The translations under genes and the position numbers were made by a program. This document shows positions 26,091 through 62,500 of a DNA stretch of 64,000 bases, one piece after another. This DNA is from Lawsonibacter asaccharolyticus (GTDB taxonomy: Bacteria > Bacillota > Clostridia > Oscillospirales > Oscillospiraceae). Numbering within the stretch: position 1 is the stretch's first letter; each line of letters begins with the position of its first letter. The stretch is from NCBI GenBank assembly GCA_003112755.1, contig BFBT01000001.1:1054001-1118000 (forward strand), given 5' to 3'. The notes below the pieces were generated by a model that was given only the letters and a program-made list of their open reading frames with translations, made no database searches and was not told the origin of the DNA.

Positions 26091-27155
26091 TCAAGCCCGC
26101 CGGGCCAGGACTTCCAGCATATGGTCCGCGAACCGGTCCAACCGATCCCGGACCCCGGGCAGCCCCATGGCCTCCCCTGGGTCGTTGGCTGTCTCCAGCA
26201 GGGCAAAGCGTCCTGGCAGATAGAAGGACTTGTTCATGTTCATGGCCGAGATCAGCTGCCGGGCCACCAAGTCGCTGCCCGAATAGCCTGAGACCACCAG
26301 GGCGAACAGGGCCTTGTCATAGAAGCGGGTCTGGCGGAACAGGGCGGTGAGGCGGTTGATGAAGGCAGTGAGATTAGCGGAGAGTGCGTCGTTGTAGTTG
26401 GGGCACAGCATGACCACCCCGTCGGCCCGGCGCACCGCGGGATAGACCTCCCGGGACATGACTCCGCCATAGAAGCACTCCCCCTTCTCCCCGAAGTGGA
26501 TACACATGGTGTAGGGACAGCCGGAGCAGTCGTCCAGTGTCCCGTTGCGCAGGCCGATCTCCTGGACACTGCACACCTCCCCCAGCCGCTCCCGCACCCC
26601 TGCCCACAGGGCCATGGTGTTGGATGTGTGGTGGCTGGAGGCGTGGAGGACCAGCAGCTCAGGCCGCTCCTTTTGGGGGAAAGTGAAGGTGTCCAGACGC
26701 TGGACCAGCTCCTGTGCCGCCGCCAGATAGGCCCCCATCAGGTCGGTGCCCAGGTTTTTGGCCTGGACGCGGAAGTTGGCCAGGGAGCCCGTCCCCTCCA
26801 CCAGCGGCCGCCCGATGAGGGCGCATCCCGCCATATCTGCGGCCAGGGCCAGCTCTCCGGCGGTGGATTTGGTGTACAGCTCTCCGGGGCCATCCACGAT
26901 CAGCGCGGCGGTGCATCCCTCCAGCAGGTCCGGCTCCCGCCGCAGCCGGGAGAGCATGCGGTAATACTCCAAATTCTGTCCCGCCCTGTCCAGGGCCAGG
27001 GCAAACAGGACCCGGTCTCCCGGCCTCAGGTCCAGCTCCTCCGCGGTGCGGATGGTCCTCCCCTCCCGGTCCGCCAGGGCGTGGGAGAGGATACCGGACA
27101 GGCGGACGTCCGCCTCCGGCCGGCCCGGGTATGGATGGATCAAAATGATGGACAT
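26091..27155 (-). CDS. Two-domain flavoprotein (NADPH-dependent FMN reductase-like)
   Basis: A 354-residue protein. The C-terminal half (about 165-350) is a flavodoxin-like FMN reductase domain starting ELLVLHASSHHTSNT. It carries a four-Cys cluster (CSGCPYTMC ... GEC, about 212-232) as in iron-sulfur flavoproteins. The N-terminal half (about 1-150) is Rossmann-like with a shikimate-dehydrogenase-like feel (IVDGPGELYTKSTAGELALAADMAG). Probably a cytoplasmic redox enzyme for quinones, nitro compounds or an unknown electron carrier. A small membrane-protein gene lies 45 bp upstream and may be cotranscribed. Confidence 0.75.
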   Translation of the reverse strand: MSIILIHPYPGRPEADVRLSGILSHALADREGRTIRTAEELDLRPGDRVLFALALDRAGQNLEYYRMLSRLRREPDLLEGCTAALIVDGPGELYTKSTAGELALAADMAGCALIGRPLVEGTGSLANFRVQAKNLGTDLMGAYLAAAQELVQRLDTFTFPQKERPELLVLHASSHHTSNTMALWAGVRERLGEVCSVQEIGLRNGTLDDCSGCPYTMCIHFGEKGECFYGGVMSREVYPAVRRADGVVMLCPNYNDALSANLTAFINRLTALFRQTRFYDKALFALVVSGYSGSDLVARQLISAMNMNKSFYLPGRFALLETANDPGEAMGLPGVRDRLDRFADHMLEVLARRA

Positions 27156-27688: not shown

Positions 27689-28927
27689 CTATAATACCGA
27701 CTTTAAATGCTCCGCCGCCTCCCGGATATGGCCGAACAGGGGGTCCGGGATACGGGGCAGCAGCTCGGTCTCCACCCCGGCAGGGGTATAGCGGTTCTTG
27801 ACCCCCATAAAGACCCCGTCCAGGAAGACGGAGCCGCAGTGCCACGCCCCCCGCAGGGTAAGCAGGATGGACAGGGCTCCGGAGGACAGTGCAGGGGCTA
27901 CATAGGGCTTAAAGCCGATCTCCCGCATGACCAGATTGGCGGTGACCGTCCTGTGGGTCAGCTCCCGGGAGACCTCCTCATCGTAGTGGTCGATGGAGTT
28001 GGCAATGAACAGTCCCGTGCCGTGGGGGCCGAAGGAGCGCCCCTCCGTCAGGAAGGAGGCCAGCCTGGGGTCCCGCTTTGCAAAGTAGGCTGCCCGGGCG
28101 TTCATCACCCCCAGGCCGAAGCCCTGGATCTGCTCTGGCCGCAGGCCCTTTCCATCCCATACGCCGTTCTCGTCCCGGTTGCTCTCCAGATAGGCGGTCT
28201 TGGCCAGGGGGTCCACTGGGTCGGACACCGCGCACCACAGCCCCTGGAAGTCGGCCGCCCGTGCCATGCGGGCGTACTGCTTCACAATGGCGGCGTTGTT
28301 TTCGAACTGGGCCATGCGCACGTCCTTCACCTGGGAGCCCACCGGCGGGATGCCCCGGGAGGCCACAAAGACGAACACATCGCAGTCAAACAACTTTTCC
28401 AGGGAAATGACCTCCACCTCCGGAAATGCCCCGTAGTCCCAGGGCAGGCTGATCTGCCCCATCTCGAACTCCCACCGGGCGGTGATCTGGTCGGAGAGGT
28501 CGCAGATGCCGATGGATGAGATCACATCCCCGCCCAGCAGCTTCAGCCCGGTGAGCAGAGTGGAGCCCACGTCCCCGATGGCCAGGATATTGACCCGCTT
28601 TTTCTCCGTCCCGGCCCTCTGGGACAACACCTGCTCCCACCCCGCCCGGCCGGTATTGACGGCGGTGAGCAACCCCTCCTCCAGGGCGGCGGACAGGGGC
28701 GCGTCCAGGGGAAAGTCCGGCAGGCGGGAGGCGTCCAGCACCTCCAGGCCGTGGGGGGCCCTCAGCTGGCCCGGACAGTTTACCTTGAAGGAGCCCCGGC
28801 CCAGCACCGGGTCCCCCTCCACCAGATAGCAGATCGGAGTCCCCGGGGCGGGCTCCGCCTTGAGATAGGGGAGGTCCCTCCGCTCAGAGGCCAGGAGCTT
28901 TCCAGCCTTTTCATAATAATAGAACAT
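27689..28927 (-). CDS. Lactate/malate dehydrogenase-like protein with N-terminal extension
   Basis: A 412-residue protein. Residues 112-400 follow the LDH/MDH fold: Rossmann loop AIGDVGSTLLTG (116-127), an R-rich loop (KDVRMAQFENNAAIVKQYAR), SDPVDPLAK corresponding to the family's NPVD segment, and FGPHGTG with the catalytic-type His. About 110 N-terminal residues have no counterpart in ordinary LDH. The NAD-binding Asp after strand 2 (IGICDLS) is present. Substrate uncertain. The start lies 54 bp after the stop of the 1599-residue gene, so the two are probably one operon. Confidence 0.72.
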   Translation of the reverse strand: MFYYYEKAGKLLASERRDLPYLKAEPAPGTPICYLVEGDPVLGRGSFKVNCPGQLRAPHGLEVLDASRLPDFPLDAPLSAALEEGLLTAVNTGRAGWEQVLSQRAGTEKKRVNILAIGDVGSTLLTGLKLLGGDVISSIGICDLSDQITARWEFEMGQISLPWDYGAFPEVEVISLEKLFDCDVFVFVASRGIPPVGSQVKDVRMAQFENNAAIVKQYARMARAADFQGLWCAVSDPVDPLAKTAYLESNRDENGVWDGKGLRPEQIQGFGLGVMNARAAYFAKRDPRLASFLTEGRSFGPHGTGLFIANSIDHYDEEVSRELTHRTVTANLVMREIGFKPYVAPALSSGALSILLTLRGAWHCGSVFLDGVFMGVKNRYTPAGVETELLPRIPDPLFGHIREAAEHLKSVL

Positions 28928-28981
28928 AATATTACACCTCGTAATGGTTTCCCGCAGATCATTTCCAGCAGTCGGCGGAGG

Positions 28982-31900
28982 TCAGCCCCGGGGGTGGGTC
29001 CTCAGCAGCTGCTCCAGGTCGTTCTCCAGATAGACCGACGCGGCCAAGTTGGGGTCATAACCCAGGCAGGTGCCCTTGTCGGGACACAGGGGCAGGATGA
29101 CCGCCTCAGCCAGCCGGCCCAGAGTCAGATTCCGACCGTAGAGTGCCCGGTACTCCCGCTCCAGGGTGCCGATCACATCCCGGGCGGACTCCAGGCAGCA
29201 GCGGGAGAGTTGGAAGACGGCCTCCTCCCCGCACTCTTTGGCGAAGGGAGGGACGGCATAGGGCAGGATGTGGTTGATTCCCGGCAGCAGGCCGGGGACT
29301 GGGGGCCGGGAGCGGCGCACTGTGTTGCCCCCGATGAAGGGGTACAGGGTGGCCTCCACGAACCACTGCCGCAGAGAGGGCAGGAAGTACACGCTGTCTA
29401 CCGGCCGCTTCTGCTGACTCATCAGGTCCCGGCCGTAGCCGGAGAGGATGCCCACCAGGACAAGCTGGATGTCCACCCCCTCCTGGCGCAGGACGGGGTC
29501 CAGGGCCTTGATGCGCACCCCGGGGTGCATCAGGTCGTCCACCAGGATGACGGGCCGGTCAAAGGATTTGATGGTGCGCACCTGGCAGGGGATGGAGGCG
29601 TAGTTGGGAAATGCCTCGATGGTGCTCTCGCTGAGGTCAGGGGAGTACACCCGGTCGGTGTGGATGGTCTTGGTGACCGTGTTGGGCACAGTCTTGCCCC
29701 GGAGCAGCTTACCGAAGGGGACGCACATATATTTCCCCAGCTTCCGGGGGGTGGTGGGCTCCTGAGGCACCTGGTTGAACTGGGTGATCATCCGCAGCAG
29801 CCGGTGGTGGATCACGTCGGCAGACAGGGTGAGGACCAGGTTGCCTGGATACAGGCCGGTGAGGGCGGTCTGGAGCCGCTGGTGTCCCCGCCGGATGGCG
29901 GCGAGCACCCTAGGGTTGCGGCTCAGGGGCTCCTGAATGGTGGTCTCCAAATTCTGGAGCAGCACCACCGGGGCCCGCAGATCGGCCTCCAGCGGCCCCC
30001 CATCCCGGCGGATGAAGCCCTGCCGCCGGAAGAGCTCCTCTGTCTCCGGGGAGCACAGCCCCTCGTGGGGGTGGAAGACAGCGTAGACGCACTCCGCCTC
30101 CAGGGCGTGGGAGAGCACCTCGCTGACCAGCAGCTGGGCATAGTCCTTCTCCTGCTCCTCTTCGGCGGCCAGGCCGGTGATGAACAAAGTCTTACCTCCC
30201 GCCCGCAGGCGCACCTGGTCCGCCAGATCGGCGTTTTGAAACGCGGAGTAGAGGTCGGCTGTAGACAGATAGCGGAAGCTGAGCCAACCCAGCATGGGCT
30301 CCCCGCCCTCCCGACGGTGGCGCAGCACCAGCAACTGGTCCCCGTCCCGGAGGATAGCGGTCCGCAGGCTCTCCCGCTCCCGGTGCCCAGCAGTGACATC
30401 GGCCACCAGCAGGGGGGCCGGCCGCTCCACCCACTGGAAGGACAGGTCCCGGGCGTTGAGCAGGGGCTTGTCCTGGGTGTCGCGGAGGTACAGGCCGTTC
30501 TGATAGATGAAGTCCTGGATCACCGGGTCGATGAAGGTGGAGATGTCCCGGTTCATGTCCACGTTCTCCCGGATACGGGTAGAGCTGATGTCCTCCAGGT
30601 GGGGGGGCAGCTGGAGCTGGATCACTTTTCCGGTGATGCCCAGCTCCTTTCCCTCCGGCAGGGGGGGCTGGCCCGCCCTGCGGAAGATGATGTGGTCCAT
30701 GGAGTGGACCGACCAGTCCACAGGGGCGGCCTGATAGGCGCTGGCGTGGCCCACCACATCGCTGCCCACCACCAGATAGACCTCCTGGCCGGGGAAGAGC
30801 TCCCGCAGGCGGCGCAGGTCCCTGGGGTTGGACAGGTTCACCGGGATATCGTTGGGAAACAGGTGGATGTGGAAGTCCCCGGCGATGGACAGGTTGACGA
30901 TCTGCCGGCGGATCATGTGGGGCTGGGGCTTTTTGGACCAGGAGAACTCGTCCACCGCCAGATACACCTCAAAGCCCATCTCCCGAATGGCGTGGGCGAT
31001 GCCCTTGTGGGACAGGGTGAAGGGGTCAAAGGTGCCGGGGAAAAAGGCGATCTTCCGGGGCTGGGAGAAGGCGAAGGGCCCCTTGTCCAACCGCCGCAGG
31101 GCGATGAAGCGGTTGATGTGGGCCAGGGCGGAAGCCCGGTAGAAGAAGGTCAGCGGGTCCTGACGGGGGCCCGCCTGGATGAGGAAGAGGAGCTTGCGGT
31201 AGCACAGGGAGAACAGGCGGGACTTCTCCTCCATGGAGAGCACCGGGCTGTCGAAGAGCATGGTCCCGGTGACCAGAAGGGCCTCCTGCCGCACCTCCTC
31301 CCGGTAGTGGGCCAGCCCCTGGAGCAGCAGGCCCAGCAGCTCCTGGCGGCGGGCCTCATAGGCCCGCTCCGGCTCAGGGAAGCGCCCCCGGTAGGCGGGG
31401 TAGTGCTGGAGCAGCACCCCCACGGTGTTCAGCGCCCCGGACACGGCGATGTTGGTGGGGGAGCCCAGCAGGTTCTTCAGCCACAGCACCTGCTCGTCCA
31501 GCTCGCTGGGGTGGAGGGACAGGGCAGCCCGGCCCAGATACTCCGGGATATACTTGGAGATCTGGTACTGGCCCATCTCCAGGCCCTTGCCCAGCTCCAC
31601 CACCACCTCGTTGCGCTGCTCCCGGCGCAGCAGGGGGATCAGGCGGACCAGGGCCTCGCCGGCGGCGTGGCGGACGCCCACCCGCTCGGACACCTTCACC
31701 AGGTTGGAGAAGTGGGTGGCGATGTGGAGCATGTGCTCCCGCAGGCCGTGCTCCACCTGGTCCTGGAGCAGCTCGATGCCCACCACCTTGATGATCCAGT
31801 GTGTGGCGCTCTTCAGGTTGTCCAGGAAGATCTCGCTGGTCACGTCCTGCTCATACAGGGCCGCCTGATAGTCGGACACGTCCTCCCCCGCCCGCTGGAG

Positions 31901-33781
31901 GACCTTATACCGCAGGAAGAGCAGCGGCAGGCTCCCGCCGGCGGCAGACCGGGCGGCCGCCGCGATCTGAGCCATCTGGGGGTGATCCTGGGGCAGGGAG
32001 CGCTGGGCCTCCCGCAGGAACTGGAGGGCCGCCGCCTGGAGGCGCAGGTTGCCGGAGGCGGCGAACCAGGCCGCAAAGCGGATGAGGCCGCCCCGGGTCT
32101 CCTGGTCATATTGCTGGGCGGGCAGATAGCGGATGGCGTCCAGCAGGGTGAAGGCGGTATCCTCGTCCTTCTCCTCCGGCCGGTCATAGTAGCGCAGCAG
32201 CGCCCCGATGAAGCGTGGCATGGTCTCGCTCCGGCCGTACTCCAGCAGGGCGTCCACCACCAGCTTCAGGGTATAGCCGATCTGGCCCCGCTGCTGGGGG
32301 GTGGTCTTGTGGTCGGGGTAGATGAGCTTGTCCAGATACTCCTCCCACAGGGTGAAGGGCACCTCCTCCGCCGGGTCAGTGCGGGCGTCGGCAGGCACCT
32401 CCTTGCGGTAGACCAGGTGGAATTTGGCGATGATCTTTCCGATGAGGCTGGCTGCCTGGCGCCGGATATCCCCCTCCCGGTGGATCAGCAGCTCATAGAG
32501 GAATGCCAGGGCCTGGGTCTTCTGCCGCACGGACAGATAGGTGCAGTACTCGTCGAACACATCCAGATAGGCCCGCAGCTGCTGCCAGCTCTTGGCCGAG
32601 CGGGCGGCCTCGATGATGTTGCCGAACTTCCGCTCGCTGCTCAACTGGTGCATCAGCTTCAGGTTGTGCTCTACCGACAGCAGGATCAGACTGTCCACCG
32701 TCTCGTCCGGGGGCATCAGGGCCGGGTCCTTGGGGGGCTTCCGCGCCCCCGGCTGCCCGGTCAGGTCTACGTCCACCCCCAGAGAGCGCATGTAGTCCTC
32801 GAAATCGTGGAGCTTGCCGTAGACGAACTCATACCGGCGGCGCTTTGCCTGGTCCACATTCTCCAGCTTCCTCAGGATGATGTGGAAGGACTCCTCCAGG
32901 GGATAGAGGATGGTGGTCTCCCGCCCCTGCTCATCCCGTCCCTGCTTGCTGCGGAAGTCGGCGTAGATCAGACACAGGGACTCCATGGAGAGGGTGTCCA
33001 GCTCCAGGTCCCAGGTGGAGTGGTTGGCAGCGATGTGGCTGACGGCGGGCATCCCCCGCCCCAGCAGCCACTGGTCGGTGTAGTAGTAGTGGAGGAGCGG
33101 GACACGCTCCCCGGGCCGGCAGCCGAACTTGCCCAGGTCGTGGGCGGCGGCGGCAGCGGACACCAGCGCCAGGTCTACGTTCTCCCCCGCCTCCCGGATG
33201 CCCCGGGCCACGGTCATGGCGATGTAATGCACCCCCGCGATGTGCCCCAGGGTGCGGAAGGGGGTGGTCTCCTCGCTCAGCCGCATCATCTCATAGACGT
33301 ACTCCTCCCGGAAGGCGGCCAGGAAGCGGCGGTACTCCTCCCCGCACTCATATTCCTCCATTTCCTCTGAGGAGAGGAACTGGAAGTCCTTCAGGGGGTC
33401 GAAGGGCACCGCCCTCCGCTCCCGGTCCAGCATCACCTGGAGGACGGTGAGGAAAAACAGGGCCCCCGCCTCATACTCCTCCCGATCAGGGGCGAAGCCT
33501 TGGCCGGGGTACATCCGCTCCCGGGCGTACTGGGTGCAGAAGGCCAGCCACCCCTCCTCCGGCCGGGGGGCAAGCCGGGGCAGTACACAGGAGCACAGCT
33601 CCAGCACATGGGCGCACTCCAGCCGCCCCCGGATGGGCAGCATCTGCTCCAGCCCCTCCGTCCATCCCGGCACCTTCAGCAGGGCCAGCGCCGCCTTCCG
33701 GCTGGGGGCAAAGGGCAGCTTACGCGCCAGCAGCGCGTCGGCGATCTCCCCGTTGATCTCTCGGATCAGCTTCTCATGCAT
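28982..33781 (-). CDS. Giant multi-domain enzyme: HD, helical repeat, nucleotidyltransferase, GNAT-like and PRTase-like domains
   Basis: A 1599-residue soluble protein. Residues 160-310 look like an HD phosphohydrolase (GHIAGVHYIA at 179-188, AAHDLGKFG at 212-220, HIAANHS at 249-255). Residues 380-900 are helical, HEAT-like repeats. Residues 908-1100 are a NadD/CoaD-type nucleotidyltransferase (FPGTFDPFTLSHKGI at 914-928, ISSTRIRE at 1065-1072), but the second His of HxGH is Ile. Residues 1110-1290 end like a GNAT (ELFRRQGFIRR). Residues 1310-1480 contain a phosphoribosyltransferase-type motif (VILVDDLMHPGVRIKAL, 1411-1427). The C-terminal 120 residues are unassigned. The promoter is at 33851-33879. 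Function unknown; nucleotide or NAD-related chemistry is suggested. Confidence 0.85.
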   Translation of the reverse strand: MHEKLIREINGEIADALLARKLPFAPSRKAALALLKVPGWTEGLEQMLPIRGRLECAHVLELCSCVLPRLAPRPEEGWLAFCTQYARERMYPGQGFAPDREEYEAGALFFLTVLQVMLDRERRAVPFDPLKDFQFLSSEEMEEYECGEEYRRFLAAFREEYVYEMMRLSEETTPFRTLGHIAGVHYIAMTVARGIREAGENVDLALVSAAAAAHDLGKFGCRPGERVPLLHYYYTDQWLLGRGMPAVSHIAANHSTWDLELDTLSMESLCLIYADFRSKQGRDEQGRETTILYPLEESFHIILRKLENVDQAKRRRYEFVYGKLHDFEDYMRSLGVDVDLTGQPGARKPPKDPALMPPDETVDSLILLSVEHNLKLMHQLSSERKFGNIIEAARSAKSWQQLRAYLDVFDEYCTYLSVRQKTQALAFLYELLIHREGDIRRQAASLIGKIIAKFHLVYRKEVPADARTDPAEEVPFTLWEEYLDKLIYPDHKTTPQQRGQIGYTLKLVVDALLEYGRSETMPRFIGALLRYYDRPEEKDEDTAFTLLDAIRYLPAQQYDQETRGGLIRFAAWFAASGNLRLQAAALQFLREAQRSLPQDHPQMAQIAAAARSAAGGSLPLLFLRYKVLQRAGEDVSDYQAALYEQDVTSEIFLDNLKSATHWIIKVVGIELLQDQVEHGLREHMLHIATHFSNLVKVSERVGVRHAAGEALVRLIPLLRREQRNEVVVELGKGLEMGQYQISKYIPEYLGRAALSLHPSELDEQVLWLKNLLGSPTNIAVSGALNTVGVLLQHYPAYRGRFPEPERAYEARRQELLGLLLQGLAHYREEVRQEALLVTGTMLFDSPVLSMEEKSRLFSLCYRKLLFLIQAGPRQDPLTFFYRASALAHINRFIALRRLDKGPFAFSQPRKIAFFPGTFDPFTLSHKGIAHAIREMGFEVYLAVDEFSWSKKPQPHMIRRQIVNLSIAGDFHIHLFPNDIPVNLSNPRDLRRLRELFPGQEVYLVVGSDVVGHASAYQAAPVDWSVHSMDHIIFRRAGQPPLPEGKELGITGKVIQLQLPPHLEDISSTRIRENVDMNRDISTFIDPVIQDFIYQNGLYLRDTQDKPLLNARDLSFQWVERPAPLLVADVTAGHRERESLRTAILRDGDQLLVLRHRREGGEPMLGWLSFRYLSTADLYSAFQNADLADQVRLRAGGKTLFITGLAAEEEQEKDYAQLLVSEVLSHALEAECVYAVFHPHEGLCSPETEELFRRQGFIRRDGGPLEADLRAPVVLLQNLETTIQEPLSRNPRVLAAIRRGHQRLQTALTGLYPGNLVLTLSADVIHHRLLRMITQFNQVPQEPTTPRKLGKYMCVPFGKLLRGKTVPNTVTKTIHTDRVYSPDLSESTIEAFPNYASIPCQVRTIKSFDRPVILVDDLMHPGVRIKALDPVLRQEGVDIQLVLVGILSGYGRDLMSQQKRPVDSVYFLPSLRQWFVEATLYPFIGGNTVRRSRPPVPGLLPGINHILPYAVPPFAKECGEEAVFQLSRCCLESARDVIGTLEREYRALYGRNLTLGRLAEAVILPLCPDKGTCLGYDPNLAASVYLENDLEQLLRTHPRG

Positions 33782-33879: not shown

Positions 33880-33949
33880 GAATCTTTCGCCTGGGAGACT
33901 CCCATTTTTTCCCGCTTTTGCCCAATCTCTCCCGTGTTTTCGATTCTCA

Positions 33950-33978
33950 TTGCAAATCCTGGCCCGGCGCGGTACAAT
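33950..33978 (+). promoter_or_regulatory. Promoter of the flavodoxin-family reductase gene
   Basis: TTGCAA (33950-33955), 17-bp spacer, TACAAT (33973-33978). Divergent from the promoter of the giant gene about 70 bp away. Confidence 0.65.
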
Positions 33979-34025
33979 GGGAGCATATGGGAAAGGGCTC
34001 AAGATGCCCAAAGGAGGAGATACGT

Positions 34026-34682
34026 GTGAAAGTCCTGCTCATCAACGGCAGCCCCCACAAAGAGGGCTGCACCTACACCGCCCTGTCCGAGGTGGCGGCT
34101 CAGCTCCAGAAGCATGAGATCGAGACCGAGATCTTCTGGATCGGCAATCAGCCCATCCGGGGGTGTATCGACTGTAGATCCTGCTGGGGCAAGGGCCGCT
34201 GTGTTTTCGACGATGACAGCGTCAATCAGTGCATCCAGAAGATCATCCAGGCCGACGGCCTGGTGGTGGGCTCCCCAGTCTATTTCGGCGGCATCGCGGG
34301 GGGGCTGAAGTGCCTGCTGGACCGGGTGTTCTACGACGCCAAGCGGCTGTTCTTCTACAAACCTGCCGCCGCCGTGGTCACCTGCCGCCGTGGCGGGGCC
34401 GGCAACACCTTTGACCAGCTCAACAAGTACTTCACCATCTCCTCCATGCCGGTGGTGTCCTCCCAGTATTGGAACGGCGTCCACGGGGACCGGCCGGAGG
34501 AGGTCCGGGCGGATCTGGAGGGGATGCAGACCCTGCGCCTGGTGGGGGACAATATGGCCTGGCTGCTCCGCTCCATGACCGCCGCCCGCGAGGCCGGCGT
34601 GGTCCCCTATGAGCGGGAGGTCCGTGTGAAGACCAACTTCTACAAGCCGGAGGCCGACCCCAATGTCCAGGGGGAGGGCTGA
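34026..34682 (+). CDS. NADPH-dependent FMN reductase / iron-sulfur flavoprotein
   Basis: A 218-residue flavodoxin-like protein. It begins KVLLINGSPHKEGCTYTAL (the FMN phosphate loop of the NADPH-dependent FMN reductase family), has a Cys cluster CIDCRSCWGKGRC (about 42-54), and SPVYFGGIAGGLKCLLDR, the isoalloxazine-side loop. It likely transfers electrons from NAD(P)H to small acceptors in the cytoplasm. The GTG at 34026 is chosen because AAAGGAGGAG lies just upstream and the family motif starts there. Single-gene unit between its own promoter and a bidirectional terminator. Confidence 0.87.
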   Translation: MKVLLINGSPHKEGCTYTALSEVAAQLQKHEIETEIFWIGNQPIRGCIDCRSCWGKGRCVFDDDSVNQCIQKIIQADGLVVGSPVYFGGIAGGLKCLLDRVFYDAKRLFFYKPAAAVVTCRRGGAGNTFDQLNKYFTISSMPVVSSQYWNGVHGDRPEEVRADLEGMQTLRLVGDNMAWLLRSMTAAREAGVVPYEREVRVKTNFYKPEADPNVQGEG

Positions 34683-59321: not shown

Positions 59322-60668
59322 TCAATACACGCCCTGCCACAGCATGGCGTCGGCCACCTTCAGGAAGCTGACGATATTGGCGCCGGCCTGGATGTCGCCC
59401 TCCTGGCCGTACTTAGCTGCGGTGTCGGCGCACTGGCGGTAGATGTTCTCCATGATCTCCTTCAGCTTGGCGTCCACCGCCTCAAAGGTCCAGTACAGGC
59501 GCTCGCTGTTCTGGCTCATCTCCAGACCGGAGACAGCCACGCCGCCGGCGTTGGAAGCCTTGGAGGGGGAGTAGAGGAGGCCGGAGGCTTTGATGGCCTG
59601 GATGGCCTCGGGAGTACAGGGCATGTTGGAGCCCTCAAAGACGGCCTTACAGCCGTTGGACACCAGCAGTTTGGCGGAGTCGGTGTCGATCTCGTTCTGG
59701 GTGGCGCAGGGCATGGCGATGTCGCAGGGGACGGACCAGATGCCGGCACAGCCCTCCACGTATTTGGCAGTGGGGACATAGTTGGGATAGGTGCTGATGC
59801 GCTCCCGCTTCTGCTCCTTGATCTGCTGGATGATGCGGAAGTCGATGCCGTTCTCGTCCACCACATAGCCGTTGGAGTCGCTCATGGCCACCACAGTGGC
59901 TCCCATCTCGGTGCACTTCTGATTGGCGTAGGTGGCCACATTGCCCGAGCCGGAGATGATGACCTTCTTCCCCTGGAAGGACTGGCCGTGGTCGGCCAGA
60001 TAGGCGGCGCCGAAGTAGCACAGGCCGAAGCCGGTGGCCTCGGTGCGGGTGAGGGAGCCGCCGGAGGCCAGACTCTTTCCGGTGATGGCGCCGGTCCACT
60101 GGTTCTTCAGCTTCTTGTACCGTCCGAAGAGGTAGCCGATCTCCCGGCAGCCCACACCGATGTCACCCGCAGGGACGTCGGTGTTCTCACCGATGTGGCG
60201 GTAGAGCTCATTCATAAAGGCCTGGCAGAACCGCATGACCTCGCCGTCGGACTTACCCTTTGGGTCGAAGTCGGACCCGCCCTTGCCGCCGCCCATGGGG
60301 AGGGTGGTCAGACAGTCCTTAAAAGTCTGCTCAAAGGCCAGGAATTTCATGACAGACTGGTTGACAGAGGGATGGAATCGCAGCCCCCCCTTATAGGGGC
60401 CCAGGGCGGAGCTGTGCTGCACCCGGAAACCGTGATTCAGGCGGGTCTTGCCCTGATCGTCCACCCAGGACACCGGGAAGCAGATCAGGCGCTCCGGCTC
60501 GGCCATGCGGCCCACGATGTTCTGCTGCTCATAGCGGGGGTCGGAATCGATCACAGGGGAAAGGGGCTCCAGAAATTCCTCCACAGCCTGGAGGTACTCG
60601 GGCTCGTGGGCGTAGCGGGCCCGCAGATCATCCATCACGGAATTAAGGTAAGCGTTCTGAAAGGACAT
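59322..60668 (-). CDS. gdhA: Glutamate dehydrogenase (NADP-type, hexameric)
   Basis: A 448-residue enzyme of the usual length. The substrate pocket motif KGGLRFHP and catalytic Lys region LPMGGGKGGSDFDPKGKSD are intact. The Rossmann part has ISGSGNVATYA. It interconverts glutamate with 2-oxoglutarate and ammonia. The promoter on the minus strand is close to consensus. Downstream lies the hairpin at 59262-59294, which may end transcription. Confidence 0.96.
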   Translation of the reverse strand: MSFQNAYLNSVMDDLRARYAHEPEYLQAVEEFLEPLSPVIDSDPRYEQQNIVGRMAEPERLICFPVSWVDDQGKTRLNHGFRVQHSSALGPYKGGLRFHPSVNQSVMKFLAFEQTFKDCLTTLPMGGGKGGSDFDPKGKSDGEVMRFCQAFMNELYRHIGENTDVPAGDIGVGCREIGYLFGRYKKLKNQWTGAITGKSLASGGSLTRTEATGFGLCYFGAAYLADHGQSFQGKKVIISGSGNVATYANQKCTEMGATVVAMSDSNGYVVDENGIDFRIIQQIKEQKRERISTYPNYVPTAKYVEGCAGIWSVPCDIAMPCATQNEIDTDSAKLLVSNGCKAVFEGSNMPCTPEAIQAIKASGLLYSPSKASNAGGVAVSGLEMSQNSERLYWTFEAVDAKLKEIMENIYRQCADTAAKYGQEGDIQAGANIVSFLKVADAMLWQGVY

Positions 60669-61191: not shown

Positions 61192-62316
61192 TCAGACGAG
61201 CAGGCTCTTCTCAGATTCGGGGTCGAAGAGATGGATGAGGCTGGGGGAGAAGGTGAAGCGGAGCTTGGTGCCATAGGGCACGCCGCCCCGGTACTCTGCC
61301 GGCAGTTCTACGGTGGGGGTGCGGATGACCACCTCCTGGCCGCCCTCCACGGTGGCGTGGAGGTACAGCTCGCTGCCCATCAGCTCGGACACCTCGATGG
61401 ATGCCTCGATGGCGGAGGCGGAAGGGTCCTTCTGCACCGCGATGTGCTCCGGACGCACGCCCAGGATCACGTCGGCGCTCTGCTGTCCCTTCCCGGCCAG
61501 CTTGGCGCTCATCTCCCCGTCCAGCGGGAAGCTGGCCCCGGCATACTCCACCGAGTAGTCGCCGCCCTTCTTCTCCAGGCGGGCGTTGAAGAAGTTCATC
61601 TGGGGCGTACCGATGAAGCCGGCCACGAAGATGTTGATGGGCTTCTCAAAGACCTCCTGGGGGGTGCCGATCTGCTGCACAAAGCCGTCCTTCATGATCA
61701 CGATCCGGTCGCCCAGGGTCATGGCCTCTGTCTGGTCGTGGGTCACGTACACGAAGGTGGTGTTGATCCGCTGCCGCAGCTTGATGATCTCCGCACGCAT
61801 CTGGTTGCGCAGCTTGGCGTCCAGGTTGGACAGGGGCTCATCCATCAGCAGCACCTTGGGCTCCCGGACAATGGCTCGCCCGATGGCCACACGCTGCCGC
61901 TGGCCGCCGGACAGCGCCTTGGGCTTCCGGTCCAGATACTGGGTGATGCCCAGGATCTCCGCCGCCTGGTCCACCCGCTGCTGGATCTCCTCCTTGGGCA
62001 CTTTCTTCAGCTTCAGGGGGAATTCCATGTTCTCCCGCACCGTCATGTGGGGATACAGTGCGTAGCTCTGGAACACCATCGCGATGTCCCGGTCTTTGGG
62101 CTCCACGTCGTTGACCAGCTTGCCGTCGATGTACAGCTCTCCCTTGCTGATCTCCTCCAGGCCCGCCACCATCCGCAGGGTGGTGGACTTGCCGCAGCCG
62201 GAGGGGCCCACCAGCACGATGAACTCCTTGTCCGCGATCTCCAGGTTGAAGTCGCTCACTGCGGTGACCGAGTTGTCATAGATCTTGTAGATGTTCTTCA
62301 GACTGACAGTTGACAT
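61192..62316 (-). CDS. Carbohydrate ABC transporter ATPase (MsmX/UgpC type)
   Basis: A 374-residue ATPase: Walker A GPSGCGKST, Q-loop VFQSYALYPHMTV, signature ALSGGQRQR, Walker B VLLMDEPLSNLD, and the C-terminal OB-fold regulatory domain of the UgpC/MalK group (about 240-370; VRPEHIAV). Such ATPases energise one or several sugar importers. It lies downstream of an N-acetylneuraminate-lyase-like gene and a sugar ABC permease on the same strand. The ribosome-binding site before ATG 62316 is weak. The gap 62317-62500 holds a GC-rich palindrome (CCGCCGGCCGGCGG) and no gene. Confidence 0.93.
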   Translation of the reverse strand: MSTVSLKNIYKIYDNSVTAVSDFNLEIADKEFIVLVGPSGCGKSTTLRMVAGLEEISKGELYIDGKLVNDVEPKDRDIAMVFQSYALYPHMTVRENMEFPLKLKKVPKEEIQQRVDQAAEILGITQYLDRKPKALSGGQRQRVAIGRAIVREPKVLLMDEPLSNLDAKLRNQMRAEIIKLRQRINTTFVYVTHDQTEAMTLGDRIVIMKDGFVQQIGTPQEVFEKPINIFVAGFIGTPQMNFFNARLEKKGGDYSVEYAGASFPLDGEMSAKLAGKGQQSADVILGVRPEHIAVQKDPSASAIEASIEVSELMGSELYLHATVEGGQEVVIRTPTVELPAEYRGGVPYGTKLRFTFSPSLIHLFDPESEKSLLV

Positions 62317-62500
62317 GGCTTCTGGCCGTGAGACCTCTGCCTCCGCAGCAGGCCCCTCCCCCGGACGGACTGTCCCTCCCGGGGCTTACGACAGGTCTCC
62401 ACACTGCCGCACCGCCGGCCGGCGGTCTTTTCTTCCTCCTTTTTTATGGGGCCGAGGACTATGAAGAATGGAGTAGTTCCACGGCCCTGGTCTCGTTAGA

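Follow-up and report, generated by a model that had tools for sequence, protein, structure and literature searches.

The stretch of DNA analysed here, called the window throughout, comprises 64,000 nucleotides of the Lawsonibacter asaccharolyticus genome (contig BFBT01000001.1, positions 1,054,001 to 1,118,000). It contains the genome's single copy of a gene, hereafter the large gene, whose protein joins an HD phosphohydrolase-like domain, a helical solenoid, a NadD-type adenylyltransferase domain, a GNAT-like fold and a phosphoribosyltransferase (PRTase)-like domain. Two smaller genes accompany it in nearly all genomes in which it was found. The first codes for a protein similar to lactate and malate dehydrogenases (LDH and MDH; partner 1), the second for a flavodoxin-like protein resembling iron-sulfur flavoproteins (partner 2). 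The original prediction, made from the letters of the window, had taken the large gene for a unit by itself. Its protein of 1599 residues is real, but the unit is a module of three genes, and both partners had been overlooked. Neither the domain order nor the module was found in the titles of the open literature searched, which mostly excludes subscription journals; within that scope, the statement of the original prediction that it knew no characterised protein with this order is borne out. Positions of all features are collected in Table 1.

Table 1. The large gene, its domains and the genes that follow it (window positions; aa, amino acids; ORF, open reading frame; FMN, flavin mononucleotide)
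Feature	Position	Strand	Basis or remark
Large multidomain protein, 1599 aa, ATG start	28982..33781	-	ORF call
HD phosphohydrolase-like domain, residues 141-345	32747..33361	-	PF01966 and conserved residues
HEAT/armadillo-type helical solenoid, approximately residues 360-903	31073..32704	-	AlphaFold2 model, Foldseek and VIA
NadD/NMNAT-type adenylyltransferase domain, residues 908-1100; GTFDP...TLSH, GSD, ISSTRIR	30482..31060	-	
GNAT-like fold, residues 1111-1268; acetyltransferase activity improbable	29978..30451	-	
Type I PRTase-like domain, residues 1285-1500; VPNTVTKTIHT, ILVDDLMHPGVR	29282..29929	-	PF00156
Partner 1, 412 aa, LDH/MDH-like, extra N-terminal part of about 105 residues	27689..28927	-	54 bp 3' of the large gene
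Small ORF between the partners, 134 aa	27201..27605	-	in 1/92 loci (the window's own genome)
Partner 2, 354 aa, flavodoxin-like FMN_red protein, iron-sulfur flavoprotein-like	26091..27155	-	PF03358, 1.6e-17

At E<=1e-3, the large-gene family is matched by 7144 of the 7994 scored candidates, and a scan of contigs for the large gene returned 63 loci with identities of 41 to 72%. Among 120 listed family proteins, those bearing a name are called "cytidyltransferase-related domain protein" or are labelled as adenylyltransferases, of nicotinate/nicotinamide nucleotide or of nicotinic acid mononucleotide. The order of the five domains is constant throughout the aligned family, whose mean column identity is 51%; its most variable parts include the first 140 residues and the GNAT-like segment. 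Profiles back the HD, NadD-type and PRTase-like segments, and structure models add the HEAT-type solenoid and the GNAT-like fold. Profile tests of single domains were run on 21 family members. Active sites were read from an alignment of the query with 77 loci, in which fractions count only the sequences covering each site. On the plus strand, a 1539-aa ORF (28751-33370) runs antisense across nearly the entire large gene. It looks like a shadow of G+C composition, because its G+C content by codon position mirrors that of the real gene.

In the HD domain, H180, H214-D215, H231, H254, D258 and D275 are each kept in 77/77 covering sequences, the query included. Four of these residues (H180, H214, D215 and D275) match the metal ligands of the H...HD...D pattern. 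PF01966 matches 20 of the 21 members tested, with a best value of 1.1e-7, the window protein scoring 15.3 bits where the cut-off is 22. By eye, the domain could plausibly be taken for YqeK. This assignment was ruled out by profile comparison with hhalign, where the probability was 15.6% for YqeK and 88.7% for a dGTPase control, and the YqeK profile TIGR00488 is not among the matches of the 21 family members. Sequence search of PDB with the N-terminal half of the large protein returned only 4mcw, at E 0.068.

The adenylyltransferase domain was assigned to the NadD fold by a fold test, and its motifs are kept closely. F918, D919 and H925 are found in 78/78 sequences, D1008, S1066, S1067 and R1071 in 76/77, and I/V-S-S-T/S-x-I-R is intact in every covering sequence except two large-gene copies that have no partners. 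The position of HxGH is occupied by T/S-L-S/G-H in most of the family, with the second His retained. A gap-free comparison of the host NadD (GTFNPPHLGH) with the large protein (GTFDPFTLSH) places TLSH at HxGH; the reading of HKGI as an altered HxGH is therefore a misalignment and was rejected. The equivalog cut-off of TIGR00482 (112.45 bits) is reached neither by the window gene (38.9 bits) nor by its best relative (59.4 bits), and all 25 TIGR00482 matches found inside large-gene copies fall below it.

PF00156 matches the PRTase-like segment of 15/21 members (lowest value 3e-5) by the C-terminal half of the profile, which contains the VDD strand; the window segment scores 10.9 bits at a cut-off of 26.3. 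D1415 is present in 77/77 sequences, D1416 in 73/77 and G1421 in 76/77. In type I PRTases, the motif that binds phosphoribosyl pyrophosphate (PRPP) contains D-D and T-G, and S/T are usual at the positions before Gly. These positions are mostly H/N and P/K/H/R in the large-gene family. Structure prediction of this region is confident, and a PDB sequence search with it returned only matches at E 0.51 and 1.2. The solenoid, which makes up about one third of the chain, was modelled by AlphaFold2 with a mean predicted local distance difference test (pLDDT) of 89.8 and matched HEAT proteins over residues 377-903 in both Foldseek and VIA. As the VIA fold lists are crowded by HEAT and NadD rows, the lack of HD or PRTase rows in them means nothing. 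A fold test on residues 1111-1268 of the model points to GNAT. The acetyl-coenzyme A loop of GNAT enzymes follows the pattern Q/R-x-x-G-x-G/A, and no such loop could be recognised by eye across the 21 aligned GNAT-like segments.

The five modules named by the original prediction are thus real in their order and family-wide, and the strand, which had not been given, is minus. Its apparent HD phosphohydrolase holds as an HD-like domain, and so does its 500-residue alpha-solenoid as a HEAT-type one. The NadD/CoaD-type adenylyltransferase stands by motifs and fold once HKGI is replaced by TLSH, the GNAT-like segment by its modelled fold with the acetyl-coenzyme A loop missing, and the phosphoribosyltransferase motif by its family profile matches, at a sub-threshold score in the window protein and with an off-pattern sequence. 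Several of these features would suit a scaffold of mostly pseudo-enzymes that bind nucleotides and thereby control the LDH-like and the flavodoxin-like partner: the GNAT-like part without a recognisable loop, the PRTase-like motif off its pattern and below the Pfam cut-off, the large share of solenoid, and an adenylyltransferase damaged in two copies. The HD and adenylyltransferase residues listed above are, however, conserved far beyond the mean identity of the family, and we regard such a scaffold as rather unlikely.

The association of the three genes is strict. Counted at E<1e-15 or better, the large gene is present in 25/291 Clostridia genomes. Partner 1 was found in 24 of these 25 and in 0/266 others (Fisher P 3e-34), partner 2 in 23 of the 25 and in 0/266 others (Fisher P 4e-32). 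The misses are genome G178, which lacks both partners, and G240, which lacks partner 2; both cases are at contig ends. Eleven further carriers, nine from the window's family and two from elsewhere in the phylum, contain partner 1 in 11/11 cases; it lies on another contig in G386, where the genes are at contig ends, and in G360, although there would have been space for it next to the large gene. When neighbours were counted in an unguided way over 77 loci (10 clusters), partner 1 turned up in 74 loci, representing every cluster, and partner 2 in 71, representing 9 of them. Partner 1 is missing beside the large gene at L109 and L111, which are partnerless copies, and at L122 of G360. Partner 2 is missing at these three loci, at L021 and L116 and, by ORF count, at the interrupted L063. 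In L063 (Clostridia bacterium UC5.1-2E3), the large-gene copy is broken into several ORFs and the partners look short too, which may reflect sequencing error or decay. The small ORF between the partners is probably not part of the module, since among the 92 loci tested it was found in the window's genome alone. A further flavodoxin/FMN-reductase-like ORF (by reading; 33918-34682, plus strand) adjoins the large gene divergently and had no counterpart in the other genomes of the first 92 loci.

Partner 1 matches Ldh_1_N weakly, and its profile matches solved LDH/MDH structures (best 2.2e-7) in its N-terminal part only. It contains the Rossmann motif GDVG and invariant R278 and H302. LDH depends on a catalytic His and Asp168 and on substrate-binding Arg171. 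The acidic residue after the second Rossmann strand is D in most rows and A, G or S in L093, L094, L099 and L100, where nicotinamide adenine dinucleotide phosphate (NADP) may therefore take the place of nicotinamide adenine dinucleotide (NAD). Partner 2 is assigned to FMN_red by profile, and its cysteines 210, 213, 218 and 227 are invariant in 25/25 aligned sequences. A PDB search with its profile found nothing at 0.1.

In G155 and G199 the large gene is present in an additional copy that has no partner next to it, and each of these genomes has a single partner 1. In these copies (L109 and L111, sister rows in the tree) the adenylyltransferase motifs are damaged and the HD and PRTase-like motifs are intact. 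This pattern suggests that the product of the adenylyltransferase concerns the partners and that the HD and PRTase-like sites serve a separate purpose.

In two other draws, the large gene was found in 10/120 genomes of the window's family and in 4/299 genomes of a phylum draw, two of them outside the class Clostridia. Weaker matches were left out: 56 genomes in the Clostridia draw, nearly all matching the NadD part, and four in the family draw (two NadD-like, one HD-like and a 40-residue piece at a contig end of G350, which could be a genuine copy cut short). Among the named carriers are Pseudoflavonifractor, Flavonifractor, Lawsonibacter, Clostridium symbiosum, C. sporosphaeroides and Acetoanaerobium noterae. 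Distribution of the module across anaerobes is patchy, and many of the carriers come from animal guts. This patchiness and the collection of nucleotide enzymes on one chain could fit an anti-phage defence or NAD-reconstitution system, and NAD+ reconstitution pathways of phages are reported to employ related kinds of enzymes (PMC12774641). Such a role is nevertheless very improbable. PADLOC assigned none of its families to the three module proteins at E<=0.1, and the partners are redox-like. Cargo of phages or plasmids was rejected with residues 893-1599 as the query: one of 50,697 phage records matched (29% over the NadD part), and the sole plasmid match was a record of 2.6 Mb. That record (NZ_CP154629.1, locus L113), from Acetoanaerobium noterae, is filed as a plasmid, carries the full module and, judged by its size, looks like a chromosome.

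Carriers of the module have their own NAD enzymes. Among 25 carriers, 24 encode a separate NadD above the TIGR00482 cut-off (all but G056), and 23 encode a separate YqeK, an Ap4A hydrolase (all but G056 and G178); the window's genome has a fused NadD-YqeK elsewhere (428-aa ORF, L142:81-1367). Housekeeping NAD synthesis by the large protein was ruled out on the NadD count. Related to it is the view that the large protein serves NAD back-up, salvage or repair, making nicotinic acid adenine dinucleotide (NaAD) or NAD from base, PRPP and adenosine triphosphate (ATP) and clearing damaged forms. The NadD-type fold and motifs, the PRTase-like and HD domains and the proofreading known from a NadD-YqeK fusion (PMC9426524) all agree with this view. 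It is made quite unlikely by the separate NadD and YqeK, the patchy presence in 25/291 genomes, the strict tie to two partners and a PRTase-like part that is by profile nearest to type I enzymes and not to PRTases of the NadV or PncB kind, which handle nicotinamide or nicotinate. General NAD salvage, as suggested in the original prediction, is not supported, given the separate NadD and YqeK and the type I resemblance of the PRTase-like part; its wider idea of building and taking apart a dinucleotide has a tested precedent in the fusion.

In 14/76 loci, the flanking DNA covered (in most cases up to 10 kb) includes a gene for glutamate dehydrogenase (GDH) or glutamate synthase; the other 62 have none. 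Names of these neighbours come from reading of their sequences, the ELFV-type dehydrogenases being assigned by PF00208. The neighbours require at least six label changes on the tree, in about five lineages, and stand in line after partner 2 in some loci and divergently before the large gene in others. At L093 and L094, genes read as an Amt-type transporter and glutamate synthase separate the large gene from partner 1. In the unguided count, GDH (13 loci, 4/10 clusters) ranks first among non-module genes when a shadow ORF is set aside; the 35-locus neighbour family with the same cluster count consists of ORFs antisense to partner 2 in 35/35 cases. Homologues of 2-hydroxyacyl-CoA dehydratase are present in 18/25 carriers and in 9/55 chosen non-carriers (P 2e-6, kinship ignored).

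The module may serve glutamate or ammonium metabolism in some lineages. The main rival of the reading that we favour below extends this to a regulatory hub at glutamate and ammonium, where adenylyltransferase and HD domains would likely act in opposition on a nucleotide signal in the manner of GlnD or SpoT, the GNAT-like and PRTase-like parts would sense ligands and the redox partners would be sensors or targets. The neighbouring glutamate genes in their differing arrangements, the dehydratase contrast and the outlasting of HD and PRTase-like sites in partnerless copies speak for it. Yet 62 of 76 loci have no such neighbour, and the cluster rank of GDH leans on L063, whose shortness is the sole reason for its being a cluster of its own; when L063 is set aside, GDH is found in 3/9 clusters, equal to three unrelated families. 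In L049 the GDH gene lies hundreds of kilobases from the large gene, and GDH is as frequent in carriers (23/25) as in non-carriers (47/55; P 0.49), so that a general link to GDH is not supported beyond some lineages. The family scan detected no ACT or PII-like domain, the ACT domain being a point of difference from GlnD and SpoT, and the dehydratase contrast ignores kinship and uses 55 hand-chosen non-carriers. Taken together, we find the hub doubtful. In the window, the better GDH-type match (PF00208, about 59331-60062, minus strand, as the large gene) is about 25.5 kb away and was therefore not counted as linked.

Riboswitches were considered as a clue to the substrate and dropped, as nothing recurrent before the module emerged when 19 of the 92 loci (L065-L083) and the window were scanned with Rfam. 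The scan detected an FMN riboswitch 5' of a RibU-like gene preceding the large gene in L065, which is the same place as L093, and also some tRNAs. By reading, a RibU-like gene stands before the large gene in L093 and L094. A malK-I RNA of the window (62311-62492, minus strand, 127 bits) is far from the large gene.

Considering all three genes, we tentatively favour the interpretation that the large protein makes, and likely hydrolyses, an NAD-like adenine dinucleotide serving the two predicted redox partners; it is a possible reading of the domains, with less than even confidence. The PRTase-like domain would bind or sense a mononucleotide or make it from PRPP and a base, and the NadD-type domain would join this mononucleotide to adenosine monophosphate derived from ATP. 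The HD domain would hydrolyse wrong or surplus product, as does the HD part of the JCVI-Syn3A NadD-YqeK fusion with NaAD and its analogues (PMC9426524). The HEAT solenoid may keep both enzymes on one scaffold and dock the partners, which would use or reduce the product. A bolder version, a private cofactor or nucleotide-signal system, appears unlikely: in it, the five-domain protein would build and destroy an NAD-like dinucleotide with a non-standard base, on which an LDH-like protein and an iron-sulfur flavoprotein reserved for it would run, and fermenting anaerobes would have, where glutamate and ammonium metabolism meet, a second redox circuit alongside that of NAD.

Several points weigh against a dinucleotide made for the partners. 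The profile comparison does not bring the HD domain nearer to YqeK than to a different HD family. The adenylyltransferase has Thr or Ser for the first catalytic His, as does CoaD, in which the motif is TxGH. The PRTase-like motif deviates from that of type I enzymes, D1416 is replaced by N, T or E in 4/77 sequences, and the PRTase-like site of L128, a locus from outside the class Clostridia, is altered though both partners are present; phosphoribosyl transfer may therefore not take place. Partner 1 has M275 at the position of LDH Asp168 in 26/26 sequences (placed by motif counting) and so may not be a dehydrogenase. The cysteine spacing of partner 2, C-x2-C-x4-C-x8-C in the window protein, differs from the published iron-sulfur flavoprotein motif CX2CX2CX5-7C (PMC3164229). 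L021 and L116 show no partner 2 next to the large gene; their whole genomes were not searched for it. The two damaged copies, L109 and L111, are probably one event with two descendants, and L122, alone at its locus, retains intact adenylyltransferase motifs, although its genome has partner 1 elsewhere.

A family named in the records seen only as cytidyltransferase-related or as adenylyltransferase is the core of a strict three-gene module. If the proposed dinucleotide is indeed made beside the housekeeping NAD route, carriers would possess nucleotide chemistry so far undescribed. The constant partners, the kept active sites and the natural copies with damaged adenylyltransferase make this idea directly testable in vitro.

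Each component has known relatives from which it deviates. The large protein shares with type I PRTases the C-terminal half of PF00156 with its VDD strand and differs from them in its PRPP-loop residues and in the sub-threshold score of the window protein. Partner 1 resembles L-lactate and malate dehydrogenases by its GDVG motif and conserved R278 and H302 and differs from them by Met at the Asp168 position, SDPVD for NPVD and the extra N-terminal stretch. Partner 2 is like iron-sulfur flavoproteins by its FMN_red profile and by four invariant cysteines in a compact motif, unlike them in cysteine spacing and in an extra N-terminal half. GlnD and SpoT regulators, engaged in nitrogen and starvation control, also carry nucleotidyl-transfer and HD domains on one chain, as the large protein does, but their nucleotidyltransferase fold is different.

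From NadD and NMNAT enzymes, the large protein is set apart by falling under the TIGR00482 cut-off and by Thr or Ser in place of the first catalytic His. The NadD-YqeK fusions of mycoplasmas and other Gram-positives likewise combine a NadD-type adenylyltransferase with an HD phosphohydrolase on one chain. In the large protein, unlike in these fusions, the HD domain comes first, a 500-residue solenoid is placed between the two enzymes, and GNAT-like and PRTase-like domains are added. It has TLSH for HxGH and an HD domain that is not specifically YqeK-like, is joined by two constant partners and coexists with housekeeping NadD and YqeK. Fusions of NadD with HD domains are already known, and the large protein is a variant on that theme, with room for something newer.
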